Below are positions 524 to 23,819 of a stretch of DNA of 32,287 nucleotides, in pieces. The translations under genes were made by a program, and so were the position numbers. Location: positions 1-32,287 of the IMG/VR virus record IMGVR_UViG_3300025120_000281; one strand, 5' to 3'. The stretch is from a virus. Every line of letters begins with the position of its first letter. Position 1 is the stretch's first letter. Under the pieces are notes generated by a model. The model ran no database searches. It was not told where the DNA came from and worked only from the letters and a program-made list of their open reading frames with translations.

Positions 524-787
524 TTAAAATCTCGAACAACACCATCTTTTTCTAGCAGCTCTACCTCTTTTACCATCCCAACTTTTAGATCTACTACAAA
601 ATGCTTTTTGTCTTTTGTAAGCTTTAGTACCTGCTTTAACATCACATTTAGTTACTGCAGTTTTAAGCTTGCTTCCTGGGTTTTTCTTTCTATATTCTTT
701 AACCCCTTTTTCTGTCATACCAGCGCCCTCTTTAACAGTTCTAAAGTTACGACCTTTTCCTTTTGTAGTTTTTCTAGGCTCTGACAT
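524..787 (-). CDS. Small basic Cys-containing phage protein
   Basis: An 87-aa, strongly Lys/Arg-rich protein. Its motifs are GAGMTEKGVKEYRKKNPGSK (residues 22-41), then KAFCSRSKSW (61-70) and GRAARKRWCC (75-84). This GMT..G...YR..NPGS...FC.R...RRW.C pattern recurs in small proteins of unknown function from marine phages; from memory it is the type grouped as DUF6321, which I could not verify. The charge and Cys/Trp content suggest nucleic-acid or virion binding, but no fold is evident. Its ATG overlaps the TAA of the preceding gene by one base (TAATG), so the two are probably translationally coupled. Confidence 0.75.
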   Translation of the reverse strand: MSEPRKTTKGKGRNFRTVKEGAGMTEKGVKEYRKKNPGSKLKTAVTKCDVKAGTKAYKRQKAFCSRSKSWDGKRGRAARKRWCCSRF

Positions 788-1133: not shown

Positions 1134-1408
1134 TACTTTTTCTTTTTACGAGTTCTACTTGATGCTCCACAAGGTGCGCCAGTTGCTACATTAATCCAGT
1201 TTTCTTTTTCAAACCAATCTTTTAAAGTGGCTCCCTTTTTACGTGCACCTTTAACATTTGATTTGCTAGATCTTTTATATTTACCTTTGCTAGCAGCAGA
1301 TTTTTTAGCATTAACTACTTTCTTCTTTTCAGCAGCTGACATAGATTTAACTTTACTTGCTGGTAAACAAACTTTAGTAGTTCCTCCTCCTTTAACTTTT
1401 TTCGCCAT
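1133..1408 (-). CDS. Basic Lys/Ser/Ala-rich protein with a C-terminal PCG motif
   Basis: A 91-aa protein. The N-terminal two thirds are low-complexity and basic (Lys, Ser, Ala), like a histone-tail or DNA-binding region. The C-terminal third, LKDWFEKENWINVATGAPCG (about residues 62-81), is a compact module ending in Ser/Arg/Lys. This W...W.....G.PCG pattern resembles small domains found in marine phages and algal viruses; from memory it is similar to the DUF5872 type, not verified. The ATG at 1408 lies 17 bases inside the end of the phosphatase gene, and its stop overlaps the 39-aa gene start. DNA or virion binding is a guess from charge only. Confidence 0.72.
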   Translation of the reverse strand: MAKKVKGGGTTKVCLPASKVKSMSAAEKKKVVNAKKSAASKGKYKRSSKSNVKGARKKGATLKDWFEKENWINVATGAPCGASSRTRKKKK

Positions 1409-1904
1409 CTTGTTTTATATGATCATACAACATGTCTCCAATTTTTTTACCAAATTTTGAGTCTGATTCGTAATGTGCTTTAGCAACATTCCTGCTATCA
1501 GATATATTATTTCCTAAAACTGTAAATCTACTAGTATTATTTAAATCATTTAAATAATTAGCAACCAATCTACCTTGAACAGAATGTCCAGATGGGTACG
1601 AAGGAGTTTTCATAGATTTCAACTCAATATCATTTAATTTTATATCATACTGTTTAGCAAGATCTTTAGGTCTAGGTCTATTAAAGTGTAGTTTTAATTT
1701 TTTAATTACATCATCATAAGCATCTAAAGCCATTTTTTTTACATTTTCTTTTGGAAAATTAAAATTATTAGCTTCAGCAAAGTTTCCAAAAACTTTCATT
1801 ATGTCGTCATTGTTTTTAACAAACTTTTCGTCATCTTTAATTTTAGTCAGATCTTGTATTTCTCTAAAGGTTTCTAAAGAATTGTCTTTAGGTGGCTTTT
1901 GCAT
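1392..1904 (-). CDS. Soluble PAP2-family acid phosphatase-like protein
   Basis: The protein carries the complete three-part signature of the PAP2/vanadium haloperoxidase superfamily. Numbering from the upstream GTG at 1970, K-x6-RP is at 91-99, PSGH at 126-129 and SR-x5-H-x3-D at 159-170. In this family these residues bind phosphate and form a phospho-histidine intermediate. No transmembrane helices are visible, so it resembles soluble bacterial acid phosphatases more than membrane lipid phosphatases. I prefer ATG at 1904 (170 aa); GTG at 1970 gives 192 aa but overlaps the 49-aa gene by 35 bases. There is no clear signal peptide. It could dephosphorylate nucleotides, lipids or sugars; the substrate cannot be read from sequence. 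Confidence 0.86.
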   Translation of the reverse strand: MQKPPKDNSLETFREIQDLTKIKDDEKFVKNNDDIMKVFGNFAEANNFNFPKENVKKMALDAYDDVIKKLKLHFNRPRPKDLAKQYDIKLNDIELKSMKTPSYPSGHSVQGRLVANYLNDLNNTSRFTVLGNNISDSRNVAKAHYESDSKFGKKIGDMLYDHIKQDGEKS

Positions 1905-1935
1905 CTTTAATTTGCTTAAATCAAAGTTTTTAAAC

Positions 1936-2085
1936 TTACTTCTTTTTTCCAACTCCCCAATTTTTTGCACCTCTTTTTCTACACTGAACTAACTGACCAG
2001 AAGCATAAGCACTAGGCCAAACTTTAACCGCTGCTTTAACCTTATGGTAACAAGCATCTTTTTTTGTTTTCTTTTCTCTAGCCAT
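1936..2085 (-). CDS. 49-aa micro-gene with a DACY-WPSAYASG-CRKRG motif
   Basis: This frame runs from ATG (2083-2085) to TAA (1936-1938), filling what would otherwise be an empty stretch. It starts three bases after the stop of the 135-aa membrane protein. The product is basic and contains KKDACYHKVKAAVKVWPSAY, then ASGQLVQCRKRGAKNWG. This DACY.KVK..VWPSAYASG..V.CRK.GA..WG pattern is, from memory, a very widespread small protein of marine phages and also occurs in large algal viruses. Its two Cys and invariant-looking Trp suggest a small fold. The function is unknown. Its end lies within the frame extension of the phosphatase gene, which is one reason to shorten that gene. Confidence 0.8.
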   Translation of the reverse strand: MAREKKTKKDACYHKVKAAVKVWPSAYASGQLVQCRKRGAKNWGVGKKK

Positions 2086-2088
2086 GAT

Positions 2089-2496
2089 TTATAATTTTCT
2101 ACCTTTTTTATCTACTTTAACTTCTTTAACTATAACCCTAGTATTAGGTTTTTTATTTCTTAATTCTTCTAACTGCCTGTCAAGCTCTTCTAGTTTACCA
2201 TCATTCTCTGTACCATCTTTAATTAAAGTGGATATAACATTTATTTCTTCAAATACAACATCATCAACTTGTTCAAGCATATCAACTCTTTCTTTCAAAT
2301 CTATTATCATATCTTCGTTCCACTTTTCTTTTAGCTCATATTCTAAACGGGTTACTTCTACAGGTGGCAATGTTTTAGCTTGTGCTATATCTTCTTGCAA
2401 AGTATAATACATACCTACTATTGTAGTTGTAAACATTATTATACCTATTACGGTTTTTATATCTATTTTAAACTCTGTATTTTCTGATATTTTCAT
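2089..2496 (-). CDS. Single-pass membrane protein with coiled coil; candidate spanin-like or holin-like lysis protein
   Basis: A 135-aa protein with a short charged N-terminus, one membrane helix at about residues 14-32 (TVIGIIMFTTTIVGMYYTL) and a long charged region with coiled-coil heptads (about 45-118), ending in a basic tail. Small inner-membrane proteins with a periplasmic coiled coil are typical of phage inner spanins (Rz-type), and this organisation is also seen in some phage membrane proteins of unknown role. No partner outer-membrane lipoprotein or endolysin is visible in the window, so the lysis role is an inference from topology. Its ATG overlaps the TGA of the giant gene (ATGA), which suggests coupled translation. 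Confidence 0.68.
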   Translation of the reverse strand: MKISENTEFKIDIKTVIGIIMFTTTIVGMYYTLQEDIAQAKTLPPVEVTRLEYELKEKWNEDMIIDLKERVDMLEQVDDVVFEEINVISTLIKDGTENDGKLEELDRQLEELRNKKPNTRVIVKEVKVDKKGRKL

Positions 2497-5400
2497 TTTT
2501 CCATTAATTCTAGCAATTTATCAACTCTATCTTTTTCGTACTTTAAAGATTTTATATTGCTTTTAGTTAAACCTAAACTATCTAATTTTTGTATTTGTTC
2601 TTGTTTTGTTAATTTAAAATACTTTTCTGTATCTTGTTTTATTTTTTGATTTTTATAACCTGCTTCATCAAGTACTGGTTTGTATGCATATTTTCTTGTT
2701 TTAGCTTCTTTTCTTTTTAACGCTCTTTCTTTTCTATCTTCTTCTTTTTCTTTTTCAGACATCAACTGCCACTCAGGCCAACCAAGACCCATTGCTAAAC
2801 GTTTCCAGTTTTCATTGTCATCATTTAAAGCTCCTTTAATATTTTCTACTTTTTGATAAATTCTATCAAGAGGCACGTTAGTTGTAGAAGCTACTACTTT
2901 TGCAGCCGCTTCATAAGCTGGATTATTTATATTAAAAGGATCTTTAGCTTCTGGATCTTTTCTACCATATTCCCAAGTAGTCATACCTTGTTTAAACTTA
3001 CTAACTTTAATATCTATAGGAGGAGAAACATCAAGCAATTTAAAAGCAACATCAGGATACTCAGGTCTTGATTTTTTAGATCTATCATAAATATCTAAAG
3101 CAATATTTTTTATTGTAGAAACAACAGCTCCACCAATTCCAAGTCCTCTTAGGACGTTGTCTGTCATGCTATTTAAAGTTTTTACACCTTTGTATTTTTC
3201 TAAAAATGATTTTTGTTCTTCATCATCATCATTAAAAGCTACGGCAAATAAAGCAGATTGTAGTGTAGTAAATATTATGTTTTGTAAAGCGCCGTAATAT
3301 AATATTTTACTTACATTATCTTTCCAATCACCTCTTCCATTGACTAAGTCTAAACTTGCTTTTTTCATTATTCTAGAATATTGACTAGGTGTATTAGCAA
3401 ATGCTAATATAACTTTACCAGCAGTACTAGCTTGTTGTTGAGATATTTTACTTGGGTCAGAGGACTGTTGTGATTCTTCAGACTTAGCCTTAAAATCTTC
3501 AAAAGCTCTAGCTTCTGCATCAGCTTTACTCAATCCTTGTTTTAAATAAGCATTTACTTTATTTCTATAATAACTAGCACCACCAGTGGCTATAGCAAAG
3601 CTATCTGCTATTTGAGTTAATACAAAACCTTTTTTAAGCAAAGTCGCTATAACAGCTTTAGCTTTATTTGTACTGGTTTTTGCTGATTCAGCTATTTCAG
3701 ATTCACTTACATTTATTTTTAAACCATTACGTCTATCAACTAAGTAATCTGAGTTCATTAAAGTCATAAAGTCAGACCAGTATTGAGGTTGATTAGCAAA
3801 TGCCTTACCAGCTTTGTATAAGTTGTTATCTCCAGTTAGCTCTATAAAGTTTAAAGAAGATATAGTTTGTAGCACTGCTGATCTAGCATTTAAGAACATA
3901 ACACCACCAATAGAATTATTAACATAGTCTAAGAACCTAGATTCTATTCTACCCATTGCAACACCTCTGTTGGTTCCTGTTTTCATTCTTCTAATAGAAT
4001 CTTCTAAAGCTTCTCTATATTTAGAGCCAAATGCAGCTTCTATTTTGTTTAAGTTCTTATTTGAAAAAGCTTGGTCTATGTTATTGTTCCATTGTGCTAA
4101 ATACTTTGATCTACCTTGAGTTCTTAAACCTTCTCTCATGTCAGTAGTAATTGTTCCAGCCAACCAGTTTTTACCAGGGTAGTGATAGCCATTACTCTTG
4201 TTTATGTCTATTAACTGACTAGAAAAAATACCAATTTCAGGGTTTTCTTTTACGAAATCATCAACTTGTTTTAAATCTCTTTTAGATAAACCTTCTATTT
4301 TTATATCTTGTTTGCTCCAAGCATCTATTCTTACTATATCTTCAAAAGTAAAACCACCAAAAGCTTTCTTTTTTAAATTTTTAGGTATACCTTCTAAGCT
4401 GTTTTTAAGAGCTTTAAAATCTGCTGCCAAAGTATTTTGAGCAACTGTTAAATCATTAATACCTCTATTGTAAGGTTTTATTAAGTTGTCTTGCATCCAT
4501 TCCCATTGAGCATCACCTACTGATCCTTTACCTAGTAAGTTGTATAACAAACCTCCAAAGTCTTCTGCCGATGCTGGTATTAAGTCAAAGCTTCTTTTGT
4601 CTCTACCTTCTGATTTAGCTCTTACGTCTGAATATTCTTTAAATGATTCAATACCAGTTTTCTGGTATATAATATCATTCATAGTTTGATCAACAGTTTC
4701 ACTAAACTTTATTTTAGGTTGCTGTTCTGGTGATTTAATATCTACAACATCTAAAGCTCTAGAAATAGGACTAGGTTTAGTTAACTCAAAGTCAAAACTA
4801 TTCACACCACCTGTAAAACTTTTTGTTTCATATACATCTAGTTCCCATCCAAGCTTTTTAGATATTCTATTTGCTAAAGTAGTATATAACTTAATTCTAC
4901 TAGGCTCTGCTTGATTAGCAGAGAATTCAATTCTTTTTATATTTTTGTTTTGATCTATTGCATCTAATAAACCGTTATATACCGTCTTAACAACTGTAAC
5001 TGCATTACCTGTACCAGTAATATCTCGCCTACCGCCTAAGCTAAAATCTACATCAAAACTTCCTTTACTATCTCTGGAGTCTAAACTAAAATTATATTTT
5101 TTATTACCTACGCTAAAAGTAGTATTTATATTACCAGCTTCATCTGTTTTCCAATCTAATTTCTTACCACCAGTTTCACTAAACTTTATTGTGTTTTCTT
5201 TTACTAGTTGAGTTTTAGATTTAACATCCATCAAATCTAAAGCATTTTTTACGGCATTAACATTTTGTGCAGCATCATCAGCAAAATAAAAGTCATTATA
5301 ACCTTCAGCAGCTTTATTAACTATCCAGCTTGACTTAGCAAATTCAGAACTATTTCCAAGGCCGGTAATGTTTTGTATAGGTATTTCAAGTCCAACACTT

Positions 5401-8400
5401 TTTAAAAACGACTGTATAGGTTGCGCAGATTCAGGAGCACGAGCAGTTAATACAAAAACATCTTCAGTTCCTCTAGCATTTTGTATAGCTTTAGCAACTT
5501 TTAATAATGGACCTGGTTTGCCATCTCTTACAATATTAAAGTCTTCAAAATCAAAACTTGCTCCTTCAGTTAGCAAATCAGAACCACGTTCTGCGAATTG
5601 TTCAGCTGTTAATTCACCTTTAGTTCCATCTGGCATAGTATAAAATACTAAGCTATTACTTTGAGCTAAAGTATCGTCAAAGTCAAATACTCTAATTTTC
5701 TTAACAGGAGCATTAGGATCACGAGCTATAGATAAAGCTTTGTCTAATATTTCTGTTTCAATAATAGTTATACCGTTGTTTTGAGTTTCAGACGGTTTCA
5801 TTACTTGGCTACTATCTACAAGATCTACATTAGCTTTTTTAGTTTTAGGATTATTATTCATTTTACTAAACCTACTACTATTCTGTCCTATTTTAGTTCC
5901 ATCTACTAAAGTAAATTCTAATAATTTTATTAATTCTGAGTATCTAGTGTCCCATTGAGAGTCTCCTGTTTTATAATTTAATCCCATAGAAGACTGTAAA
6001 CCAGCTTCTCTCAACATTGTGTCAAGTCCAAAAGGTAGCATAATTGTATTATAATTATCTAGTTCTTTATTGAATTCTTTTTTATTTGCTGGTGAAGGAT
6101 CTAATAAATATTTATATATTTGAAGTGACATTCTCATAGCTGGAGTCATATGTTCTAATACAAATTTATCATTAGCAGGTAAATTTAACATATCTAACAA
6201 AGTAGCTTTATCTAAAGTAGGATAGCCTAAAAATACAGCAGCACTTTTTATATAACTAGCCATTGTCTTACCACCTATAGCTACAAAAAATCTAGATTCT
6301 TCAGGTGTTAATTCACCTTGCCTTCTCATTTCAGCTAGTTCTTCTACAGTACTTCTTAAATTTTCATTACTTTCTTTAGTAAGCTCACTAACTTCTTTAG
6401 CCTTTTTTAATTTGTTTTCGTCACTTAGTTTTTGAAACTTATCATTCATGTACCAATCTTTGGTATAAGCGTCTTTCTTTATTGCTGGTACATTTTTCCA
6501 ATTAGGATATTTTTTTAAAGCTTCTGGATTGTTAAAAACGTTTTGTTCAATATCTGGTACGTTTAAAAACAAACTAGGATAAGATTTAGCGCCTTTATTT
6601 ATATACGTATTTAATTTGCTTATATCTGAATTTATTTTTTTATTCTTTTGCTCTATAACTAAAGATGAATCATCTATTGTGTCAAATTTCCATCCCTTAT
6701 AATCTAATAAATCTATCATATCTACAAAACCTTTAGGATCAGAATTTTTATATGTAATAGGTCCTATAGGATTACCTTTAGAATCTGTTTCAAAATCTAT
6801 ACTACCTCCTACTTTTCCAGGTAAACTTCTTTTAAATTCACTTTTTGTTATATTAATATCAGAAGGCGTACCTTCTACTATTATACCACCTAATCCAGCA
6901 GGCCCAGAAAATCCTAACTTAAAAAACTTCATAAATCTATCAGGACCAACAGTTAAATATAATTTTAATGCTAAATTTCTACCTTGATTTATACTGGTTC
7001 TAGATTTAAAATCATAATTTACTTTTTCATATCCCATTGATAATTCTAAAGCTTTATAGTTTGGAGGAAAAATTACATTATTTGCCATAGTAATTGCAAC
7101 TATATCAGCAACTTCAGCAGCATCAAACTTTTTAATAGCAGCTCTTGTTTGCCTTTGCATACCATCTATTTTGCTAAGCTCTGTAGCTATTTTCTTTATT
7201 TTATTTTTATCTAAATCAATATTAGCTTCGTAAAAATATTGAGTAATAGCATTTCTAAGAGGAAAAGCAGATCCATTTACAAAGTTAGCCTCTAGCATTG
7301 CTCTAAATCCACTGCTGTTTAATCCATCTATAAAAGTTTGTTTTACTTGAGGATTTTTCTTACCTTCAGCAGCTAAAGTTTCACTGAACTTAACATTATC
7401 TTGTTGTAGTATTTCACTAGCTGTATTATCTAATTCAGACTGTATGTCTTCTATAACATTGTCTACAAAAAATTCAGTTACCTGTATATCGGTCATACCA
7501 GTTCTATCAGCTAAATCTTGTAAAAAATTCTTGTCTTGTCTTAATCTAGATATTTCAGATCTTGTTAATTGCTGAGCCATTGGCTTTATTAAAGATCTTT
7601 GTCTTTCAATTAATGTAGTGTAACCACCTCTAGTAAAGTATCTTTGGAATTTTTGAGCATCTGGTTTTTCTAACTTAAATATTTGTTTTCTATAATTAGT
7701 TATTTTACCTGTATCTGGATTAACCTTTTTAATATCTTCTTTACCTATTTCTTCTAGCTTAAAAACCTCTGCCCAAGCTTTACTTTTAGCTTTTTGTTTG
7801 ATTAAATTAGTAGGCATAGATCCCACTATTGTCATCATTTCGTCTTTAATAAAGTCTATGTATTGTTTAGGTGCAAAACCCAAAACACTTCTAGTAATAG
7901 GACCCATTTTACTTTTAATGACCTTAGTCATTTCTTTATCCACAGCTTTGTTAAGATCTGCTAATACAGTTTCTTTTGATATACCTTGTGTTAAAGCTGT
8001 TCTTTTTAAAGTTTTAGTAATTATATCTTTAACTTCGTCCACTAGCTCTGGAGTTATTATTTTTAAATCTTCAACTGGCTTGATCTCTCTAGCTTCAGAT
8101 TCAGGAACTACACCTCTTCTAGCGCTAGTAACATCTACATCAAACTTGCTAGCTTTAATATCTTCTATTTGTCTAGCAGTTTCACTGTCAATAGACATAT
8201 CATTTCTTACTAAGTCATTTGGTAAATATCCTAGTATTCTTTGGTTTAATCTAGCGTTGATCCACTTAGGTAAAGATATATCACCAAACCTAGCCATATC
8301 TCTATTAGACCACGACTTAACTAATCCAGGTATACCTGACCCACCTGTAGCCATGTCAGATACCACATCTTCTAATATTGTATCATTAAAACCGCTGAAA

Positions 8401-11400
8401 TCTCTTGGTCTTATTTTAAGTTTACCTACTTCAAAACCTTTATTAAGTCTAGCTGTAACAAAATTTCTATATAAATTTCCTATTTCAAGACCTTTATTTT
8501 TAAGTGATTCATCACTTTTAAAAACATCATCTACTTTAGTAAACAACTTTGAATCTGTTTGTGAAAAACTAGTTTGTGACGCAGCCATAGACATAGTTGG
8601 CGATTTTGATTTTATAGCATCTCCTAGTCCTTTAAAGTAATTTAATATCTCTTCTTGACCACTAAATTTTATATTATAAGATCCATCAGTAGCGGCTTTT
8701 AAACCTACATTTAAAAGAGCACCTAAAACAGCAACTTGATTATCCATTTTAGTTAAATCAATCTTGTCGATGTTTTCCATAAAGCTAGAAACTAATTCTG
8801 AAGCATTGTAACCCTTGTCTGTTAGACTTCCTACTACCTCTCCGTTAGCATCTTTATAAAGCTTTCTTAAGTTAGCATTGTCTACTCCCATTTTAACAAG
8901 AACTTCTCCTTGCTGTGTATACTCTAGATATTGAACTATTTGATCAGCCATTAGGTTAAATCCCGAAGAATTATTAGCAATCAATTTATCAGTAAGTTGA
9001 TGAGTTATTTCGTGAACACCTGTTTTAGTTAAACCAGTTGCTACCATGTTGTCTATAATTGCAACAGCACCTATTTTTGGATCATTTAATCCACTTAATT
9101 TTTTTGAACTAATACTATTCATTAGTTCTTGCTTCTCTTGTCTGAGCGAACTAACTTCAGAATCATTACCAGCTTCTTGTGCTTCTTCTATTAATTTGTT
9201 ATATTCTTTATTAACGTAAGTATTAGCCTCAAGTGCAGTTTCAAAAGCTTCGTATTTTATATCATTTTTATTAGACCAAGTTTTATCTTTTTCAACTTGT
9301 TCTTTTATTTCTCTTCTTTTTATAACATCACTACCAGCATCAAAAATTTCCTTTGTAGTAGGGTCATAATTTTGACCTTTTTCTTTTCTTATATTTACTA
9401 CAGCTTCGGCTTTAGCTTTATTAAATTCTGTTCTAGCTTTGCTGAAAGGAGCAGATCTTTGAGCAGCCATTGCCATAGCAGCGTAACCATCTCCAAAAGT
9501 TTTAGTGTCTGTAAATATATCTCTGTAAAACTCTGTTTGTCTATACTGATTGTCTAAAATATCTAATTGTTCATTTTTTTCATCTACAGATAATGTTTTA
9601 TCATTAACGATAGATTCGGCTTCTATTCTTATATCGGCCATGTCTGACAGTCCTTGAGTATAGTTTTTTACGTATCGCTCTTCGGCTATGCCTTTGTTAT
9701 TTAAGTTTTGTACAACTTGATTGTCAGCTTCAATAATTGTGTTTTGAGCCTGATCTCTTAATTTTCTATATTTATCAATCTCTTTGTTTATATTAACATC
9801 TGGAGCTAAACCTTGTCCTTTAATATTTATTTTTTGATTAATAAGACTGTTTATTTTCATGGAATATTTACTGATATTTTTGTTTGCTTTTTTAATTATT
9901 CCAAGTTCTTTACTATTAGCAAACTCTCTTCTTCCAAAAGCAACAGCACCTGGCATCCCAGACATACCAGCTCCCCATACGCCAGCCGTTACCAAAGTCT
10001 CTGTCATATTTTCTAAAAACGGTCTTCCATCTATTAAGTTTTGAAGTCCAGTAGTTAAGCCTTCAGCACCCATTTCAGTTAAAGTTTCTGGTAATAATTC
10101 TTTTGTTAAGTAGTTTTTTACAAAAGCTCTTCTACCCATTTCTTTAGCATTGTCTGTAACAGCTCTATCTATTTTAAGGCCTTTAATTTTTAAACCTTTA
10201 TTAAGCAATGGTGCAGTACTAATAGCGGCGAGGCCACCTTCTACAACACCGTACATAAGACCTTTAGTTAGTATTTCAGCATCAGAGTAAAGATCTTTAC
10301 CAGTCTTAAATTCCTCATAATTCATATCACTAACTTTGCTACCAAAAGAAGATAAACCTACTAAAGAAGAGCTAGAAATAGTACTTAATCTAACAAGTTG
10401 AGCTGCTGTTAAACCAGCTGCTTCACCGGCTGCAACAGATAAGCCGCCTGTTGCTATCATAGATATTATTATAGGTAGTTGACTAGCCACCGACTGTAAT
10501 GCATATTCACCAACATCGTCTAAATCTTCAATTTTTCCAAACTGCTGGTCTCTTTTATACTCTTCAGATACGTCTTCTTTGTAATTTTGCCAAGACATCA
10601 TTACGTTATCTAAAACGTTTCCAGAATCAACACCAATTCCTTCAAGCATTAATGATGCTGGATTAACCATATTTAGCAGCTTGCTAGCACCATAGCCTAC
10701 ATTTACTAAAAGATCTGCAGAATTTAAAGCAAGTTGAGAAAAGAATTTAGCTCCATCATTATAATTTCTCTTAACAACATCCCATTGCTCTTCAGCATCA
10801 TTCATTTTAGCAACTTGATTAAAGAAGTTGTTTTGTTGATCTTTGGAAAATTGTATTTTAGAACCTAATATTGATTTTTCTTTTTGAGCATTGTCATACA
10901 AAGCGGCAGGTACAAGTCTAAAATCATCAATTGGTGTTTCACCAGGCTTGTATAACCTATTTTTTAAAGCCCCTTTGTTAGGTATTTTGTAAGCTAATTC
11001 TCCAGGCTTTATATTATAAACAATTGTCTCGTCGTTGTAAAAATTGTTTAATTCTTTTATATTGTCAGTTCCGTTTGCTATAAAATTGTTTACACTTTTT
11101 GTAGATTTCTCAACTAAGTAATTTGCTTTTTCAGCTTTGTTTACAGATTTTAATTTAGATATTGAAGTATATTTTCTTATTAAATCTTTATCTAAAACTG
11201 TATTTACATCAGTGTCTCCTTCTATATAGTCCTCATATTTACCGTTTTTAGTATCTCTTTCTATTTCAAGCTTTATATTTTCTCTAGTAAGATCTTGAAC
11301 CTCTTTAGAGTTTATAGTTAAAGGTTCCTCTCTTTTAATGCCATTAGTGACATCTGAAATATTTAATTGTTGTAGGGCTACATTTAATTCTTCTTCGTAT

Positions 11401-12788
11401 GGCTGTACAATTACTTGAGTACTACTTCCTGTTGCTCCACCCATAGACATGCCTCCAGATGCTACTGTTCTAGATTCTGGAGCAAAACTTATATTATCTA
11501 CTTTTTCTTGTATTGATATTCTATCATCTACAGATAAACCTAAAAAACCAGATTTATTGTCATTAATAGAGCGATTTTCTGAGTAAATTTTCTTTTTTTC
11601 TTCTTCAGTAGTTCCTGGTGCAAATGAAAAGTCGTTAAAATCTAATGCATCTTTAAATAGCTCTTCTACTGAGTCTTCTTGTTGAGCTGTAGTATTTTTT
11701 ATGTCTTGTATTACAGAATCATCTAAAGAAGCTCCTAGAAACTTTATAAATGCTTTCTGAGCTGCCTTAGGTGTTTGTTTGTCATACATCCCTGGATCAA
11801 ACAATGATTTTATAGCATGAGTATTACCTCTTGGGTCTTGGATTACTACAAAATCTTTAGACTGTATATCTGAAACTTTTGTTTCGACTTCAGAAAAACG
11901 ACCTAAACCAGTTACGTAAACATCTTCTGCTTTGCTTTCTCCTTTTGCGTCTCGGCCTGAATTGCTAGGTGTCCATATTTTATATCCTTCCGGTAAAGAA
12001 CCTTGAAAAGCTAATCTAAAACCTTCTGAACCATAATCGCCACCAGAAGCTTTGTCTCTTGTGAAAAATTCTACACCAAAAACGTTTTCTTTTTCTAATC
12101 TATCTCCAAACTCTTGCACGGTTTCTTTACGACTTTTCGTCACAAATGCACCGTCCTCCTGTTGATCTAGGTATTCAACTTCTTCAGGTCTTTCTTGAAA
12201 TTCAGCAGCTTCTCTTTTGTCTATTTCTTCTTGAGCATCGGTACCTGGAGCTAATACATCACCTGAATAATTGTCTGCAGGTAAGTAATCACCTCTTTTA
12301 TACTCATCATATTCTACTATAGTTGCTATTTGGTTATCATAGCTAGGCGCTGCTATAGGCTCAATTAATGCTTGATTAATATCTTCAACAGTGTTTAACT
12401 TATCTTTCTCTCTCTGTGCTTCAGGATGATCTTTTAACCAGTTATTAAAGTCTTGCTTTTCTTTAAAAGCAGAACCCATTTCATCATAGTAATCATAATC
12501 TATTTCTCCATTTATTGTTTGAGGTACAAATGGCTGAGGATTTTCTACAACTTCTTTTTCTTCGTAAGTAATACCTCCTTCAACCGCTGCTTGACCTCCA
12601 AGATTAACTTTACCTGCCAACATATCATCTATTGTAGCTCTTACTTCGTCATTGTAATTGTACAGTTTTCCAAAAACTTCATTTACAAATTCTCCGTCGC
12701 CTTTTAGCATACCTAAAAACTCTTGAGAACTATAAGGGTTATCAAATGTTGAAGCATAAGCTTCGTATAGTAAATCTTCTGGATTCAT
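2493..12788 (-). CDS. Giant 3431-aa multidomain virion (ejection-type) protein with zincin and HAD domains
   Basis: I see, in order: an acidic N-terminal region; several hydrophobic or amphipathic segments at about 680-960 (for example near 760-800), as in ejected internal virion proteins; a charged coiled-coil-like stretch at about 960-1130; HEITH at 1259-1263, a zincin motif; a HAD-type phosphatase domain with DFDDT (2369-2373), VLTAR, a downstream Lys and FADD (2502-2505); an alpha/beta domain at about 2540-2680 that faintly resembles acetyltransferases; and a C-terminal module (about 2694-3431) with RMKTGTNRG and MFLNARSAVLQTIS, which from memory is conserved in giant proteins of marine phages. 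KFSET occurs at domain edges (1799-1803, 2534-2538, 2693-2697), with weaker FS variants elsewhere. No RNA polymerase DxDGD motif or lysozyme signature was found. It follows the two internal virion protein genes. A role in genome ejection and host takeover is inferred. Confidence 0.8.
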   Translation of the reverse strand: MNPEDLLYEAYASTFDNPYSSQEFLGMLKGDGEFVNEVFGKLYNYNDEVRATIDDMLAGKVNLGGQAAVEGGITYEEKEVVENPQPFVPQTINGEIDYDYYDEMGSAFKEKQDFNNWLKDHPEAQREKDKLNTVEDINQALIEPIAAPSYDNQIATIVEYDEYKRGDYLPADNYSGDVLAPGTDAQEEIDKREAAEFQERPEEVEYLDQQEDGAFVTKSRKETVQEFGDRLEKENVFGVEFFTRDKASGGDYGSEGFRLAFQGSLPEGYKIWTPSNSGRDAKGESKAEDVYVTGLGRFSEVETKVSDIQSKDFVVIQDPRGNTHAIKSLFDPGMYDKQTPKAAQKAFIKFLGASLDDSVIQDIKNTTAQQEDSVEELFKDALDFNDFSFAPGTTEEEKKKIYSENRSINDNKSGFLGLSVDDRISIQEKVDNISFAPESRTVASGGMSMGGATGSSTQVIVQPYEEELNVALQQLNISDVTNGIKREEPLTINSKEVQDLTRENIKLEIERDTKNGKYEDYIEGDTDVNTVLDKDLIRKYTSISKLKSVNKAEKANYLVEKSTKSVNNFIANGTDNIKELNNFYNDETIVYNIKPGELAYKIPNKGALKNRLYKPGETPIDDFRLVPAALYDNAQKEKSILGSKIQFSKDQQNNFFNQVAKMNDAEEQWDVVKRNYNDGAKFFSQLALNSADLLVNVGYGASKLLNMVNPASLMLEGIGVDSGNVLDNVMMSWQNYKEDVSEEYKRDQQFGKIEDLDDVGEYALQSVASQLPIIISMIATGGLSVAAGEAAGLTAAQLVRLSTISSSSLVGLSSFGSKVSDMNYEEFKTGKDLYSDAEILTKGLMYGVVEGGLAAISTAPLLNKGLKIKGLKIDRAVTDNAKEMGRRAFVKNYLTKELLPETLTEMGAEGLTTGLQNLIDGRPFLENMTETLVTAGVWGAGMSGMPGAVAFGRREFANSKELGIIKKANKNISKYSMKINSLINQKINIKGQGLAPDVNINKEIDKYRKLRDQAQNTIIEADNQVVQNLNNKGIAEERYVKNYTQGLSDMADIRIEAESIVNDKTLSVDEKNEQLDILDNQYRQTEFYRDIFTDTKTFGDGYAAMAMAAQRSAPFSKARTEFNKAKAEAVVNIRKEKGQNYDPTTKEIFDAGSDVIKRREIKEQVEKDKTWSNKNDIKYEAFETALEANTYVNKEYNKLIEEAQEAGNDSEVSSLRQEKQELMNSISSKKLSGLNDPKIGAVAIIDNMVATGLTKTGVHEITHQLTDKLIANNSSGFNLMADQIVQYLEYTQQGEVLVKMGVDNANLRKLYKDANGEVVGSLTDKGYNASELVSSFMENIDKIDLTKMDNQVAVLGALLNVGLKAATDGSYNIKFSGQEEILNYFKGLGDAIKSKSPTMSMAASQTSFSQTDSKLFTKVDDVFKSDESLKNKGLEIGNLYRNFVTARLNKGFEVGKLKIRPRDFSGFNDTILEDVVSDMATGGSGIPGLVKSWSNRDMARFGDISLPKWINARLNQRILGYLPNDLVRNDMSIDSETARQIEDIKASKFDVDVTSARRGVVPESEAREIKPVEDLKIITPELVDEVKDIITKTLKRTALTQGISKETVLADLNKAVDKEMTKVIKSKMGPITRSVLGFAPKQYIDFIKDEMMTIVGSMPTNLIKQKAKSKAWAEVFKLEEIGKEDIKKVNPDTGKITNYRKQIFKLEKPDAQKFQRYFTRGGYTTLIERQRSLIKPMAQQLTRSEISRLRQDKNFLQDLADRTGMTDIQVTEFFVDNVIEDIQSELDNTASEILQQDNVKFSETLAAEGKKNPQVKQTFIDGLNSSGFRAMLEANFVNGSAFPLRNAITQYFYEANIDLDKNKIKKIATELSKIDGMQRQTRAAIKKFDAAEVADIVAITMANNVIFPPNYKALELSMGYEKVNYDFKSRTSINQGRNLALKLYLTVGPDRFMKFFKLGFSGPAGLGGIIVEGTPSDINITKSEFKRSLPGKVGGSIDFETDSKGNPIGPITYKNSDPKGFVDMIDLLDYKGWKFDTIDDSSLVIEQKNKKINSDISKLNTYINKGAKSYPSLFLNVPDIEQNVFNNPEALKKYPNWKNVPAIKKDAYTKDWYMNDKFQKLSDENKLKKAKEVSELTKESNENLRSTVEELAEMRRQGELTPEESRFFVAIGGKTMASYIKSAAVFLGYPTLDKATLLDMLNLPANDKFVLEHMTPAMRMSLQIYKYLLDPSPANKKEFNKELDNYNTIMLPFGLDTMLREAGLQSSMGLNYKTGDSQWDTRYSELIKLLEFTLVDGTKIGQNSSRFSKMNNNPKTKKANVDLVDSSQVMKPSETQNNGITIIETEILDKALSIARDPNAPVKKIRVFDFDDTLAQSNSLVFYTMPDGTKGELTAEQFAERGSDLLTEGASFDFEDFNIVRDGKPGPLLKVAKAIQNARGTEDVFVLTARAPESAQPIQSFLKSVGLEIPIQNITGLGNSSEFAKSSWIVNKAAEGYNDFYFADDAAQNVNAVKNALDLMDVKSKTQLVKENTIKFSETGGKKLDWKTDEAGNINTTFSVGNKKYNFSLDSRDSKGSFDVDFSLGGRRDITGTGNAVTVVKTVYNGLLDAIDQNKNIKRIEFSANQAEPSRIKLYTTLANRISKKLGWELDVYETKSFTGGVNSFDFELTKPSPISRALDVVDIKSPEQQPKIKFSETVDQTMNDIIYQKTGIESFKEYSDVRAKSEGRDKRSFDLIPASAEDFGGLLYNLLGKGSVGDAQWEWMQDNLIKPYNRGINDLTVAQNTLAADFKALKNSLEGIPKNLKKKAFGGFTFEDIVRIDAWSKQDIKIEGLSKRDLKQVDDFVKENPEIGIFSSQLIDINKSNGYHYPGKNWLAGTITTDMREGLRTQGRSKYLAQWNNNIDQAFSNKNLNKIEAAFGSKYREALEDSIRRMKTGTNRGVAMGRIESRFLDYVNNSIGGVMFLNARSAVLQTISSLNFIELTGDNNLYKAGKAFANQPQYWSDFMTLMNSDYLVDRRNGLKINVSESEIAESAKTSTNKAKAVIATLLKKGFVLTQIADSFAIATGGASYYRNKVNAYLKQGLSKADAEARAFEDFKAKSEESQQSSDPSKISQQQASTAGKVILAFANTPSQYSRIMKKASLDLVNGRGDWKDNVSKILYYGALQNIIFTTLQSALFAVAFNDDDEEQKSFLEKYKGVKTLNSMTDNVLRGLGIGGAVVSTIKNIALDIYDRSKKSRPEYPDVAFKLLDVSPPIDIKVSKFKQGMTTWEYGRKDPEAKDPFNINNPAYEAAAKVVASTTNVPLDRIYQKVENIKGALNDDNENWKRLAMGLGWPEWQLMSEKEKEEDRKERALKRKEAKTRKYAYKPVLDEAGYKNQKIKQDTEKYFKLTKQEQIQKLDSLGLTKSNIKSLKYEKDRVDKLLELMEK

Positions 12789-12800
12789 ATTGTTAATTTA

Positions 12801-14060
12801 TTAACTTAAATATCCGCCTTGACCAGCTGGGTTGTCTATGTTTTCAAAAGTATCTTCTTCAGATCCTATATTTTCATCTATTAAAATAGTGCCTTTGTTG
12901 TAAGTTTGCTCTAAATCTAACACGATAGCATCAAGGAGAGCATCTTGTGAATAAGTACTAGAAGGATACCCAAAACCTGCATATACAGCTCTAGGATTTT
13001 TTCCGCCTAAACTTGAAAGTAGGTAGTTAACACCTTCCTTAGTGTTTCTAAATTCTTTAAGTTTTTCTGCATTTAGTATTGTTTTCTCATCAACATCAGG
13101 AACCATTACCTGAATTAACGGGCCTGTTGGATTTTTAGGGTCTGGTCTTTTTCCAACTTTCATTTTTGGAACTAACTTACCTTCTTTATTTTTAACCATT
13201 GTAGGTTCTGACACTACTGTTTCAATATTGTAATCTGTATTTTTTAGTTTACCCATTGTGCTAGTCACAAAATCTATACGACTACCACCTCCAGGAGCAT
13301 ATACTTCAACCTGTTCAAAAAACTTAGGATTATTTGGATCTTTTTTTACGTATTTTCTATATTCAGTTAAACTACTTCCTGTTAAAATTTCTCCAGCCTC
13401 ATCTTCTCTTTTTCCTTTATTAAACTTACCAATATTAAAAGTGTTTCCATCAGCTGACGGGTAAATACCAACATCACCTTTTTTATTATGAATAGATTCA
13501 TATATAGGTATCATCTCATTAAATGGAGCAGTTTCATCACTTAATATAGCATCTTCTTCATTAGGACCTAGATCTCTTTCTTTTATATCTTTGTAAACTC
13601 TATAACCACCTATAAAGACATCCATATCTTGTTTAAAAGTGGCTATTCTGTTGTCGTACTGTGCTTGTATTTTACTTATTTCTGCAGAACCTAAATCAGG
13701 TTTAGATATTTCAGATAAAAACCTAGTTCTCATTGCTATTAAGTTCTCCATTATAGCATCATCTTGTATATTTTTAGATCCCTCTCCTGCATCAAAATCA
13801 CCACCTATTTGGTCTATAAGACTTTCTATGTGTGCGTAGTCTTTGTCAAACTTGCCAAGCGCTTTACCTTCTCTAACGTCTTTATCTCTTTTTTCTCTAT
13901 CTTTTTTAGCAGTTGCTTTTTCTGCTTCTCTTTTATTAATAGTAGCTTGTCTTTCAATATTTTCAGCTACTCCTTTCATAGCTGTAAAAAACTGAGCTAT
14001 GTTTCTAGCTCCTTGATCTATTTTCATTCGCACTGCCTGCGGATTATCGTATGCTCCCAT
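12801..14060 (-). CDS. Probable internal virion / structural protein (419 aa)
   Basis: A 419-aa protein that I cannot assign to a named family. The N-terminus starts MGAYDNPQAVRMKIDQGARN and continues into a highly charged Lys/Glu/Arg helix (about residues 37-70) likely to form a coiled coil. The middle is mixed alpha and the C-terminal half has Gly/Pro-rich loops (YAPGGGSRIDF near 250) and an acidic end. There is no signal peptide or membrane helix. It lies between the 228-aa probable ejection protein and the giant protein, with 12 bases before the latter. In short-tailed phages that position usually holds internal core proteins, so I infer a packaged virion protein. Confidence 0.6.
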   Translation of the reverse strand: MGAYDNPQAVRMKIDQGARNIAQFFTAMKGVAENIERQATINKREAEKATAKKDREKRDKDVREGKALGKFDKDYAHIESLIDQIGGDFDAGEGSKNIQDDAIMENLIAMRTRFLSEISKPDLGSAEISKIQAQYDNRIATFKQDMDVFIGGYRVYKDIKERDLGPNEEDAILSDETAPFNEMIPIYESIHNKKGDVGIYPSADGNTFNIGKFNKGKREDEAGEILTGSSLTEYRKYVKKDPNNPKFFEQVEVYAPGGGSRIDFVTSTMGKLKNTDYNIETVVSEPTMVKNKEGKLVPKMKVGKRPDPKNPTGPLIQVMVPDVDEKTILNAEKLKEFRNTKEGVNYLLSSLGGKNPRAVYAGFGYPSSTYSQDALLDAIVLDLEQTYNKGTILIDENIGSEEDTFENIDNPAGQGGYLS

Positions 14061-14090: not shown

Positions 14091-14777
14091 TTAGCCTGGC
14101 CCAGGCTTGTAAGTCATCCCCTTTCCAACCATACCAGCTCCTTGTGCAAATCCAGCTACACCAGATGCCATAGCAGCATTACCAGCTTGAGTAAGATCCA
14201 TAGCTTGTTGACCAGCTACTTGTTGTAACCCAGCAAATCTTTGTAACTGCATAATATCTCTCTGCTCTTGTCTGCCATAAGCGCCAATTTCTTCTTGAAT
14301 AGCAGCTTGCTCTAAAGCCATTTGCTGTTGTTGTTTTTGTTGCTCGCCTTGTAAGTATAGTTGTTGGTTTTTAAGTTCTTGATTTTCTATGCTAGCAGCT
14401 ACTTGTGCTTTGCTTGAAGCGGCTTGTCTAGCTAAAGCCGTTGCAGCACCAGCACCACCACCTGCTCTATTGATAGCATTTAAAGTATTAGCTAAAGCCT
14501 CATCTGTTTCCTCCATTTTTAAATTAACACCTTGCATTGCCACAGCGTTATTTTGATATGGATTAAATATTTGATCTTTCATAGCTCTTATATCATCAGA
14601 CTTGTCTATTACTTGTTGTCTGTTTGCTTCTAATCTTCTTAATTCAGAAGCTGCTAATTCTTCTTTTCTACGTTGTTTTGCGGCAGCTCTCTTGTTTTGT
14701 GAGTTCTGCGCAATACCCATGCCTAAACTACCTAAAGCAGTCACTCCTCCAACTATAGCCGTTACTATTCCACTCAT
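14091..14777 (-). CDS. Internal virion protein-like, with Gly-rich N-terminal helix and Gln/Ala-rich body
   Basis: A 228-aa protein with a glycine-rich hydrophobic N-terminal segment (residues 1-23, SGIVTAIVGGVTALGSLG). This is followed by a basic stretch (NKRAAAKQRRKEE), then a long Ala/Gln-rich helical body including QQKQQQQ near residues 145-155, and a Gly-rich C-terminus ending PGPG. This layout, with a membrane-active Gly-rich N-terminus and a helical body, is typical of small ejected proteins of podoviruses such as the T7 gp14 type. The similarity is in composition, not proven homology. It starts four bases after the SET/cupin gene and precedes the 419-aa gene. Confidence 0.62.
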   Translation of the reverse strand: MSGIVTAIVGGVTALGSLGMGIAQNSQNKRAAAKQRRKEELAASELRRLEANRQQVIDKSDDIRAMKDQIFNPYQNNAVAMQGVNLKMEETDEALANTLNAINRAGGGAGAATALARQAASSKAQVAASIENQELKNQQLYLQGEQQKQQQQMALEQAAIQEEIGAYGRQEQRDIMQLQRFAGLQQVAGQQAMDLTQAGNAAMASGVAGFAQGAGMVGKGMTYKPGPG

Positions 14778-14780
14778 GTT

Positions 14781-15599
14781 TTATTGTTTTTGTTTTAAAT
14801 AATCTTTGTATTCACTTCTATTTAAAGCGAATAATCTTTTTTCTATAATATCAATGTCTTGTTTATTGTCAGGATTAGAATGTATATTAACCCATATAGC
14901 ATCTTCTAATACTTCTATAACTCTTTGAGTTCCTGGTTGAGATATTGTGTAGTAAGGTGCTTTAAAACAGTTTACGTTTTCAGCATCGGCAACTTTAACT
15001 GTACCGTGCATTAAAAACCATGAGTGTAATTCTTTATGTATAGCTCCTACTATTAAAGTATCTTTTTTTACATCCATACGTCGCATATAGACGCCTTCTG
15101 TGAACTCATCTATTATTTCTAATGATTCAGCTTCTCTAACTGTTTTCTTGCCATCTCCGATGATATTAACACCATCTGCTATATCAATTAAGTTGGTTAA
15201 TAAATTATCTATTTTATTTTCTCTTTGTGTAATTAAATTTGATTCCATTTGCTTTGTTAGTGTTTTTAAATTAGTAATATAATTTACTAACAACTCTGTA
15301 TTTTCTTTTATATTTTTTAATGCAAAAAATTTATTATCTTTAAAATAAACATTAGGATTTGAAGAGTGATTAACATATCTACCTAATTCAGTTTTATAAT
15401 TATTATTTAAAACTTCACCTATTAAAGAATCTTTACTGTAATATTTGGTAGTAAAACAACCAATACCGTGTATGTGTGATTTTTTTAGTTTTATTTCTTT
15501 GTTTTCATGTTTTACTTTATGAGAGTTTACAACTTCCTTAACAAACCTCTCTTCAGTATAACCTATAATATTTAAATAATCTTCGTATGTTTCATTCAT
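14781..15599 (-). CDS. SET-like domain fused to a cupin-like domain
   Basis: In this 272-aa protein, residues about 35-110 show SET-domain hallmarks: HGIGCF (44-49), GRYVNHSSNPN (73-83), matching the family R(F/Y)(I/V)NHS..PN motif that binds S-adenosylmethionine, and then FALKNIKENTELLVNY (92-107), matching the catalytic-Tyr region. SET enzymes usually methylate lysines. A coiled or linker segment follows (about 111-165). Residues about 168-245 (GVYMRRMDVKKDTLIVG, HSWFLMHGTVKV, APYYTISQPGTQRVI, WVNIHSNP) match a small cupin-like phage domain. The SET part is short and lacks an obvious pre-SET region, so methyltransferase activity is not certain. TAAATG joins it directly to the 581-aa tail gene, so it is expressed with structural proteins. 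Confidence 0.8.
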   Translation of the reverse strand: MNETYEDYLNIIGYTEERFVKEVVNSHKVKHENKEIKLKKSHIHGIGCFTTKYYSKDSLIGEVLNNNYKTELGRYVNHSSNPNVYFKDNKFFALKNIKENTELLVNYITNLKTLTKQMESNLITQRENKIDNLLTNLIDIADGVNIIGDGKKTVREAESLEIIDEFTEGVYMRRMDVKKDTLIVGAIHKELHSWFLMHGTVKVADAENVNCFKAPYYTISQPGTQRVIEVLEDAIWVNIHSNPDNKQDIDIIEKRLFALNRSEYKDYLKQKQ

Positions 15600-17345
15600 T
15601 TATTGTGATGATAATACATAATTTGATGATACTGAAAACAACTGTTTAGCTCCTCCAACATCTGTGCTAGTGTCTATTGACATTTTGACTGTCATTATAT
15701 AACCTTTTACACCGCTAACACTATTTCCAAATATAACCTCTCCTGGTCTAGCAACACTGGAGTTTATTAGATTAGCTACGTAATCATTTTCTTTTCTATC
15801 AAAACCAGCTCTAAATATAGGTTCTGTTAAAACAGCTGGATATACGTTTCCAGCACTATCATATTGGCCTTCAACAAAACTTTTTATAGAAGCTGTAGTG
15901 TCTTGATATTGATTAAAAGATCCAGTATTTTTTACTTGATCAAAACCTTCAAAGTCTGATACATAGCTATTAACTTCCCATCCACTGTTACCTTCGTATG
16001 AAATAGTATTAAAGTTTTTTACTACAGTAGGATTAGGATTAAATATGAATCTAACAAAAGAATCAGCAGGAGTAGTAGCACCGTAAAATTTACCTCTATT
16101 ATTAGAAGTTGTTTGATCGTAATGTTTGTATACATTTGTATTAATAAATGTAAAAAAGTTATTTTTTAAACTACCCATAAAAACAGGTTTATAACTATAG
16201 AAACTAGTCCATCCTTTTACTTGTTCGTCAAAACCTAAAGTATCAAAAGTACTATCAGCTGTAGATATAATTCTTGGTTTAGTTTGTAAAGACAGAGTAT
16301 ATGCAGATTGATGTGCATCCCATGATCCTAATATAACTCCTTTTCTAAAAGTTACAAAATTAACAGTAACATAAGTTCCAACAGACCCAAAATCAAACGT
16401 ACCGCTTAGCGTAGCTTTATTGGCGCTAATAATGTCTATAACATAAAGATTAGTAGAAGTAACAATACCGCCGCTAGTAGCAACTTCAACCATAGCGCCT
16501 ATTTCAACATCTGCAGTGCCGCCACCAATACCACCAACATTAACTTCGTTGCTTACACCAGCAGGCTGCAAACCTGTTAAATTTGAAGTTATTACTTGCC
16601 TTTGTGGTGTGTCCGATATTTGAGCTAAGGTATCTCTAAAATAATCTTTCATACCATAGCCTGATATTTCTGTTATACCATCTCTAGACAGTCTAAGAAT
16701 TGAAGCTCTATCTTTATCTGCAAAATATTTTCTATATCCGTACTCGGCAAAACTTTCAGGATTTCTACTTATACCATATTCACCTAAGTAAGGAACATCT
16801 TGACCTAGCACATTTACATTGCCAGTTTCTAAAGAACCTTGATCACCTGAGTATATAGCATTTTTATTTATTAAAACTTTACTAACTTTAGATTCTTGAA
16901 ATACATTTAAATTAGTATCTTCAGTGTATAGTTTTTGTATTGATCCGTTTCTAGGATCTAAATCTTTCACTAGTGGATCTGCTATAGAAAAAACATTAGT
17001 TTCGTTAAAACCTGTTCTAGTATTTAATAGTCCAGAATATATTAAACTATGTTTTCTGTCTTGAGAATCCACATTTTGATTAACTACATATGCTCTAACA
17101 CCTAAACTTACTTGTGAATTATTAAAACCACCTCTTATTCTTGATTCTTCTACATAAAAGTTATTGTAAGTAGGTGAATTAGAAGGCGTAGAATTAAAAG
17201 GAAAAGTAGGATAAGTAGATGGATTCCAAGGTAAACCAGGCCAACCATAAGTTATAGTTTGGATTGGAAAAACTCCTGTTATTGTTTTAACTATTCTTTT
17301 CAACCAGAAAGAATTAAAATATTTCACTCCAATAGTATAACTCAT
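15600..17345 (-). CDS. Tail protein following the 1288-aa tail protein (581 aa)
   Basis: A 581-aa beta-rich protein with Gly/Asn/Ser-rich composition and no enzyme motif. Its motifs include VEESRIRGGFNN (about residues 66-77), RTGFNETNVFSIADPLVKDL (110-129), LDPRNGSIQKLYTEDTNLNV (129-148) and YGYRKYFADKDRASI. From memory, this set recurs in marine phage tail proteins located next to crAss-like stabilization or muzzle proteins. The order DPRNGSIQKLY-EDTN is the strongest identifier. It starts 35 bases after the 1288-aa gene and probably forms the distal tail with it. A receptor-binding role is possible but not shown; the C-terminal third is the less recognisable, probably variable, part. Confidence 0.68.
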   Translation of the reverse strand: MSYTIGVKYFNSFWLKRIVKTITGVFPIQTITYGWPGLPWNPSTYPTFPFNSTPSNSPTYNNFYVEESRIRGGFNNSQVSLGVRAYVVNQNVDSQDRKHSLIYSGLLNTRTGFNETNVFSIADPLVKDLDPRNGSIQKLYTEDTNLNVFQESKVSKVLINKNAIYSGDQGSLETGNVNVLGQDVPYLGEYGISRNPESFAEYGYRKYFADKDRASILRLSRDGITEISGYGMKDYFRDTLAQISDTPQRQVITSNLTGLQPAGVSNEVNVGGIGGGTADVEIGAMVEVATSGGIVTSTNLYVIDIISANKATLSGTFDFGSVGTYVTVNFVTFRKGVILGSWDAHQSAYTLSLQTKPRIISTADSTFDTLGFDEQVKGWTSFYSYKPVFMGSLKNNFFTFINTNVYKHYDQTTSNNRGKFYGATTPADSFVRFIFNPNPTVVKNFNTISYEGNSGWEVNSYVSDFEGFDQVKNTGSFNQYQDTTASIKSFVEGQYDSAGNVYPAVLTEPIFRAGFDRKENDYVANLINSSVARPGEVIFGNSVSGVKGYIMTVKMSIDTSTDVGGAKQLFSVSSNYVLSSQ

Positions 17346-17380
17346 ATTATAAATATTACTTGTTTTTTTAAATTATTACA

Positions 17381-22418: not shown

Positions 22419-22440
22419 GTTTATTTTTTTTATTTTTAAA

Positions 22441-23217: not shown

Positions 23218-23226
23218 ATTATAGTT

Positions 23227-23814
23227 TTAATCGAAGTTAGTAAATACTAGTCTTGATTTAGCTCTTTCTAGTTTGTCAGTTTTTTCTATAAGTAATCTTT
23301 GTAGTACATCTGGCCTTGTTTTCTCTCTATTAGCTAATATAGCATATATCATGCAAGCATATAAAGCTTGTTCTGCTAACTTAGGTATTGCAGCTGATTC
23401 ATCTGTTGTAAGTGCATTTGATAAATACGTTAATGTTGCATCACCACTGTCACCATAAACAATAGTTTTAGCCACGTAGTCTATAAAAAAAGTTTCAGTT
23501 GTAAGATCAACTAATTTTGAAACCTCTGTAAGAGGCGTGTTTGGCACTGGTACTGTGTTTGTTGCTGATATGACAGCGACAAAATCTGTTGGTAAAGCCC
23601 TAGCTACACCTGATACAACAGCGGTAGGTCCTTCTACGAATTGACTTTTTATAGTCTCATATGCGAATTCTTGTAAGCATCTACGTGCGTGAAATATAAC
23701 TTCTGTTCTTACCGCGTCTGGTATTAACTTGCCAGGTCCAGTGTAAGAAATTAAGAAGTTGTTTATAATATCATTTAAAGATATAAAAGCGTTTGATAAA
23801 GGTGTTGTTGCCAT
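23227..23814 (-). CDS. Neck/tail ring protein B (195 aa)
   Basis: A 195-aa, mostly helical protein. Its motifs are LNDIINNFLISYTGPGKLIP (residues 13-32), HARRCLQEFAYETIKS (43-58) and AIPKLAEQALYACMIYAIL, with a charged C-terminal helix. The homologous segments in the 388-aa protein show that this is the short paralog without the N-terminal beta domain. The beta-strand middle section carries many small residues. It lies five bases after the A gene, with start and stop close together, so the A-B pair is likely translated as a unit. Confidence 0.7.
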   Translation of the reverse strand: MATTPLSNAFISLNDIINNFLISYTGPGKLIPDAVRTEVIFHARRCLQEFAYETIKSQFVEGPTAVVSGVARALPTDFVAVISATNTVPVPNTPLTEVSKLVDLTTETFFIDYVAKTIVYGDSGDATLTYLSNALTTDESAAIPKLAEQALYACMIYAILANREKTRPDVLQRLLIEKTDKLERAKSRLVFTNFD

Positions 23815-23819
23815 AATTT

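Follow-up and report, generated by a model that had tools for sequence, protein, structure and literature searches.

A giant virion-type protein of a marine phage carrying HAD phosphatase, zincin-like and GNAT-type domains, with a putative role in ejection

Organization of the giant gene

In silico analysis of a viral contig of 32,287 bases (IMG/VR record IMGVR_UViG_3300025120_000281; the whole of it is referred to below as the window) was focused on a single gene encoding a protein of 3431 amino acids, P0001, to which all residue numbers refer. The first-pass annotation of this DNA had described one gene of more than 10 kb at positions 2493-12788, and the open reading frame (ORF) is indeed present there, on the minus strand (reading from 12788 to 2493). 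The following parts were distinguished:

2493-12788, minus strand: gene of the giant protein P0001, 3431 amino acids (ORF and translation)
10905-12788, minus strand: residues 1-628, variable N-terminal part with no recognised domain (profile searches, Pfam)
9867-10904, minus strand: residues 629-974, hydrophobic/helical core common to virion proteins of Pervagoviridae and Elemovirus (profile matches)
8613-9722, minus strand: residues 1023-1392, zincin-like domain with HEITH at residues 1259-1263 (9000-9014) and Glu1331 (8796-8798) (invariant residues, predicted secondary structure)
7377-7394, minus strand: residues 1799-1804, linker VKFSET (repeat search, statistics)
5886-6509, minus strand: residues about 2094-2301, EHxxPA module (sequence alignment)
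5199-5747, minus strand: residues 2348-2530, predicted HAD phosphatase domain (four invariant motifs, sub-threshold Pfam matches, Rossmannoid model, Pnkp1 match)
5616-5633, minus strand: residues about 2386-2391, insertion slot within the HAD domain, empty in P0001 (located by the inserts of relatives)
5172-5189, minus strand: residues 2534-2539, linker IKFSET (repeat search, statistics)
4827-5159, minus strand: residues 2544-2654, GNAT-type acetyltransferase-like domain (model, fold match)
4695-4712, minus strand: residues 2693-2698, linker IKFSET (repeat search, statistics)
2511-4772, minus strand: residues 2673-3426, large helical C-terminal module, beginning with the repeated linker helix (family alignment, all-helical model)

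Four kinds of feature in this list had been overlooked by the first-pass annotation, namely the GNAT-type domain, the EHxxPA module, the linkers and the insertion slot.

Scans of the whole of P0001 against Pfam, PHROGs and NCBIfam gave nothing usable, residues 1-2262 found no match in phage records by tblastn, and profile searches of the PDB with alignments of the HAD, zincin, GNAT, core, C-terminal and EHxxPA parts returned no credible relative. The family was defined by a scan with residues 2263-3431 as the query, which detected 551 relatives in viral contigs; 80 were kept, 77 of which contain a near-full ORF, giving 78 members including P0001. Because the query was taken from the HAD and C-terminal regions, their co-occurrence is partly a product of selection of the sample; the zincin region lies outside the query, and the retention of its motif was thus not selected for. 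Metagenome-assembled genome contigs carrying the family fall mostly into Bacteroidetes bins (with some others), a weak hint as to the host. Between P0001 and a near-identical relative (L014) the ratio of nonsynonymous to synonymous substitution rates (dN/dS) is 0.12 for the gene as a whole and 0.085 for its zincin region, with 0.07 in both the HAD domain and the C-terminal module. P0001 is encoded by a conserved gene of virion type, under selection, that carries core, zincin-like, HAD, GNAT-type and C-terminal parts.

The zincin-like domain

The HEITH motif occurs exactly at the residues where it had been annotated, and is the sole HExxH of the protein (about 0.0008 expected from composition). 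HExxH is kept in 77 of the 78 family members, its two middle residues varying freely, and H1259, E1260, H1263 and E1331 are invariant in 31 aligned sequences. E1331, 72 residues past the first histidine, completes the ligand set, giving the HExxH+Glu signature of a zincin-like metallopeptidase. The predicted order of elements is a strand, two helices, two strands, the HExxH helix and the Glu helix; the predicted local distance difference test (pLDDT) score of the model is mostly 80-94 as far as the HExxH helix and its surroundings, and 46-51 between the HExxH and Glu helices. Comparison of a model of the core plus zincin region with the PDB (Foldseek and VIA-align) returned helical-bundle and transporter-like matches only, with Z below 9, uninformative for both domains. 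Single relatives gave weak Pfam matches to several metallopeptidase families, amid many other weak matches. We infer a proteolytic activity for this domain, which probably processes the chain that carries it.

The motif is also found in Elemovirus (elemo gp18, HEIFH) and ctfjg026, and is absent from phi38:1 and Panino. Kinship with the C1 zincin of N4 was rejected, as hhalign aligned the HExxH neighbourhood only (probability 1.5%). The giant protein of MW202828 (L004) has two separate HEFGH motifs, at residues 1615 and 2500.

The HAD domain and its insertion slot

A four-motif HAD domain had been proposed at residues 2369-2505, and the motifs lie exactly there: D2369/D2371 (DFDDT), T2448 (LTAR), K2485 and D2504/D2505 (YFADD). 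This motif set of the HAD superfamily is invariant in 33 aligned sequences, and strict forms of all four patterns are found in 75 of the 78 members (L016 and L030 miss only the motif III spacing pattern). Among the 33 aligned HAD members, Pfam matched DUF2608 in 27 (best E 2e-6), HAD in 12 and PF00702 in one (E 5e-4). The domain was modelled as a Rossmannoid fold, whose best neighbours other than those of the GNAT-type domain are chains of Pnkp1, 4xrp (Z 8.3) and 4xru (Z 8.1), matched at moderate strength over their residues 175-300 (115-117 residues aligned, 16-17% identity). We take this part of Pnkp1 to be its phosphatase. Two further comparisons were discarded: with crAss001 gp60, motif I alone aligns, and the free-standing HAD hydrolase of elemo (gp48) shows no similarity.

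The spacing between motifs I and IV is 132-134 residues in 65 members and longer in 12. The extra sequence enters at a constant point, just past motif I, following the short strand after it. Seven of the 78 members (L025, L068, L070, L072, L079, L080 and L084) carry a P-loop kinase in this slot, which matches the Pfam models AAA_33 (E 2e-16), Zeta_toxin and CPT as well as crAss001 gp61 (E 2e-5); its weak relatives in the PDB include T4 polynucleotide kinase, and it resembles the T4 and bacterial polynucleotide kinases. Three others (L033, L039 and L044) carry ART-PolyVal (PF18760), an ADP-ribosyltransferase (ART) domain absent from P0001, whose best E value of 1.6e-4 is below the curated cut-off, and two members have an insert of about 47 residues. 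Two further scans, biased towards insert-bearing cases, raised the numbers to 25 copies with a kinase, 7 with an ART domain and 10 with a short insert, out of 150 distinct ones.

The fold neighbours of the HAD domain belong to the polynucleotide kinase-phosphatase type, as does the kinase nested within it in relatives, and on these grounds the domain is tentatively predicted to be a polynucleotide 3'-phosphatase of that type, an assignment that falls short of an even chance. A nucleotide, sugar or protein phosphatase, accompanied in relatives by a zeta-toxin-like small-molecule kinase, is a serious candidate as well, if one we would not call probable: the sub-threshold Pfam matches go to generic HAD models and DUF2608, the kinase of relatives has Zeta_toxin and CPT among its matches, and the comparison with crAss001 gp60 is confined to motif I. 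Set against this are the Pnkp1 chains as best fold neighbours over the HAD part and, for the kinase, AAA_33 as the top Pfam model, the presence of T4 polynucleotide kinase among its PDB relatives and the match to the crAss001 polynucleotide kinase.

GNAT-type, EHxxPA and C-terminal modules

The GNAT-type domain has a GNAT fold, matching RimL with Z 9.1 over 120 residues (Foldseek probability 1.00), and its GTGN loop is largely conserved. Stand-alone versions occur in the jumbo phages Vibrio phage D479 and PA5oct, that of PA5oct having been detected by mass spectrometry (MS). Judged by its model, the domain is a predicted acyltransferase that probably acylates a host protein. In the EHxxPA module, E2212, H2213 and P2216 are invariant in 39 sequences and a downstream arginine is present in nearly all; no PDB match was obtained for it, and by its residue pattern it might be a catalytic domain.

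The distinct C-terminal module noticed in the first-pass annotation is real. It is present in all 78 members, has a mean column identity of 50% in 50 sequences and matches no named family; together with the HAD domain it forms the most conserved part of the family. LPD38 (PF18857) had been suspected here, and its profile was unmatched, as it was in the controls.

Repeated linkers and mosaic exchange

KFSET occurs three times in P0001 (at residues 1800, 2535 and 2694), and linkers of the form [KR]FS[EK][TS] stand between domains. The broader motif [KR]FS[EKRQLD][TSNAE] has 57 copies in 50 non-redundant members, compared with a mean of 8.4 and a maximum of 15 in shuffled sequences, and seven altered control motifs gave 3 to 25 copies. 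At least three copies are found in 11 proteins, against 0.02 expected. The better evidence lies in the repeats within single proteins and the GNAT module, which is flanked by linkers even when located elsewhere in the chain.

L014 is 98% identical to P0001 up to residue 2539, and lacks the GNAT-type domain precisely between two linkers. Nucleotide differences between the two genes jump at codons 2507-2514 and drop after about codon 3250. To judge from this pattern, the segment is a recombination tract whose left end lies at the end of the HAD domain and the linker.

There is an even chance that the linkers are flexible joints or recombination points only and not protease sites, a view favoured by the exchange at a linker in the L014/P0001 mosaic and by the varying places that the GNAT module occupies between xFS linkers. 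Against it, the peptide motif is strict and the codons differ between copies (AAGTTTAGTGAA vs AAATTTAGTGAA), which suggests selection on the peptide; cleavage itself does not follow from this.

The N-terminal part and the core

A profile of residues 1-628 gathered only 3 sequences after 4 rounds, and no Pfam match was found in this region in any of 49 relatives. The core is homologous far beyond the family, its profile (629-974) matching elemo gp18 (E 4e-71), phi38:1 gp101, which is the counterpart of phi40:1 gp101 (E 6e-66), and the giant protein of Panino (E 8e-14). In one relative the core matches phrog_22602, a virion structural protein, and the core plus zincin model resembles an Elemovirus structural protein in fold (E 1.7e-5). 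Since profiles of the HAD domain and the C-terminal module reach none of the phages matched by the core, the core is, from homology, the part common to the whole lineage, and the HAD domain and the C-terminal module are additions of the marine clade.

The several hydrophobic helices annotated at about residues 680-960 were an overstatement: there are two modest 19-residue peaks, at 767-785 (Kyte-Doolittle value, KD, 1.61) and 844-862 (KD 1.38), and the idea of several transmembrane helices was rejected. KD 1.6 is reached by 6 of 31 proteins having the core domain. A PDB match of the core to Interferon gamma (E 0.002) was dismissed as a short stretch of helix.

Gene neighbourhood and virion location

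The genes upstream of the giant gene encode, in order, a terminase, portal, scaffold-like protein, major capsid protein, ring-type proteins, muzzle and fibre (PHROGs and crAss muzzle models), so that by gene order and PHROG/Pfam matches P0001 stands among late/virion genes, as polyvalent proteins do. Two smaller genes directly precede it:

12801-14060, minus strand: 419-residue protein in the position of a medium ejection protein (phi40:1 gp100, N4 gp51), a putative role suggested by synteny
14091-14777, minus strand: 228-residue protein with a hydrophobic N terminus, placed as a small ejection protein would be (compare phi40:1 gp099 and N4 gp52; homologs and synteny)

In 76 relatives, a homolog of the 228-residue gene is found upstream of the giant gene. 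Among named phages, the nearest are ctfjg026, Maribacter phage Panino, Elemovirus and Cellulophaga phages phi40:1/phi38:1, and all have a giant gene at the same locus (3859 residues in ctfjg026, 1829 in Panino, 3694 in Elemovirus and 1691 in phi40:1 gp101). According to its experimental annotation by tandem mass spectrometry (MS/MS), phi40:1 gp101 is a virion protein, as are the products of the two preceding genes. By homology, P0001 belongs to this family of virion proteins, and we infer that it is very probably packed in the virion.

Comparison with known systems

The concept of polyvalent proteins, with the general proposal that zincins process them, was introduced by Iyer et al. (2017; PMC5512222). 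P0001 resembles these proteins in being giant and multidomain, in lying in a virion gene neighbourhood and in joining unrelated enzymes in one chain, among them a zincin-like peptidase and a GNAT domain; at least two unrelated domains including predicted enzymes are indicated by the HAD and GNAT fold matches and the HExxH region, and relatives match ART-PolyVal below the curated cut-off. It differs in that no HAD phosphatase is named in PMC5512222 by the terms searched, that its zincin does not match PF18818 and that its lineage is that of crAss-like marine flavophages. The repeated linkers offer a concrete candidate site for the proposed zincin processing; they and the insertions inside the HAD domain are apparently new.

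With the virion RNA polymerase of N4 (gp50), P0001 shares a length of about 3,500 residues, an HExxH domain and predicted packaging, and the small-medium-giant order recalls that of N4 gp52-gp51-gp50 (16.5 kDa, 66 kDa and the 3,500-residue polymerase). No RNA polymerase domain was matched in P0001 by Pfam, PHROGs or NCBIfam, nor by Pfam in relatives, whose middle and N-terminal regions were scanned. The giant proteins phi40:1 gp101 and Elemovirus gp18 have the same locus and a homologous core, the former being an MS-detected virion protein; unlike P0001, neither contains a detectable HAD domain or C-terminal module, elemo gp18 carries DUF3293 besides its HEIFH, and phi38:1 gp101 is without HExxH. 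The proposed ejected cargo proteins of PhicrAss001 (gp45-gp50; PMC10172136) are likewise located after the muzzle gene, and the domain profiles were unmatched at E<=1 in the examined parts of crAss001 or phi14:2. By analogy, P0001 would work like a polyvalent protein and a giant ejection protein of the N4/T7 type, its membership in the named families being partial.

Putative role of the giant protein

P0001 looks like swappable enzyme cargo delivered with the viral DNA. On balance, we favour its identification as a multi-enzyme effector and as the largest of three proteins (228, 419 and 3431 residues) forming an ejection cassette in an uncultivated marine phage with relatives in Elemovirus and Pervagoviridae. 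In the proposed course of infection, P0001 would be ejected after the two smaller proteins, which together with the hydrophobic core would form a conduit through the envelope; the remaining domains would pass through this conduit and, once refolded inside the cell, act as a 'polyvalent' effector with several enzymes. The zincin would process the chain, the [KR]FS[EK][TS] linkers being candidate cut sites and swap points, and the HAD domain, delivered with the DNA, could repair the ends left in tRNA or DNA by the cuts of host defence. The least certain of these steps are the substrate of the HAD domain and linker cleavage.

Several observations weigh against this interpretation. P0001 itself has no P-loop kinase and thus does not combine a T4 Pnkp-type kinase with HAD in one chain. 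The Pfam matches of the HAD region are below the cut-off, except possibly the best one. The first-pass annotation had expected confident HAD and zincin folds; the HAD fold was borne out by the model and its fold match, whereas for the zincin fold no library match was found (MPTase-PolyVal PF18818 being unmatched in 31 records at E<=1), and invariant residues and predicted elements stand in its place. The claim that P0001 is a virion protein gains from homology and synteny, and is weakened by the MS-detected homolog, which has the core and is devoid of the zincin motif, the HAD domain and the C-terminal module. Finally, the linkers after the HAD domain are partly inherited from a common ancestor, so their counts are not independent.

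It is unlikely that P0001 is mainly a structural ejection or channel protein whose zincin acts only in virion assembly (maturation), the other domains being dispensable passengers with no action in the host. The virion protein phi40:1 gp101, about half the size, and the phi38:1 copy without HExxH and HAD speak for such a role, and peptidases of this sort have been proposed, among other things, to act in processing inside the phage head (PMC5512222). Dispensable passengers, however, would not keep the HAD catalytic residues invariant in 33 sequences at a dN/dS of 0.07. An extension of the effector interpretation is also improbable: P0001 as a self-cutting cargo polyprotein, in which the zincin would cut the KFS linkers and free the enzymes in the cell, the HAD domain would be a plug-in chassis taking a polynucleotide kinase or an ADP-ribosyltransferase, and effectors of early infection would be swapped among related phages by recombination at the linkers and the slot.

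Giant virion proteins are common in uncultivated marine phages, as the relatives found in one scan indicate, and almost all of their enzyme content is unnamed. A conserved HAD domain with a kinase/ART slot and a border-marking linker would supply a key to the reading of such proteins. The slot and linkers would also allow a direct test of the idea that repair or counter-defence enzymes enter the host ready-made, together with the phage DNA.

Other genes of the window

Downstream of the giant gene, a PAP2-like phosphatase (sub-threshold match; 1392-1970, minus strand) and a DUF6321 protein (524-787, minus strand) are encoded. Upstream of the cassette, the product of 14781-15599 (minus strand) has an N-terminal SET methyltransferase-type domain (PF00856, E 3.4e-7) and a C-terminal half matching tail-fibre adhesin PHROGs. 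The muzzle-like protein (15600-21247, minus strand) is encoded by two genes, corresponding to the N- and C-terminal parts of phrog_14478, and by a single gene in phi40:1 and elemo. The ring-type tail genes (21252-24815, minus strand) are apparently duplicated: in each relative, a single ORF is matched by 22441-23217 as well as 23820-24815, and a second one by 21252-22418 as well as 23227-23814.

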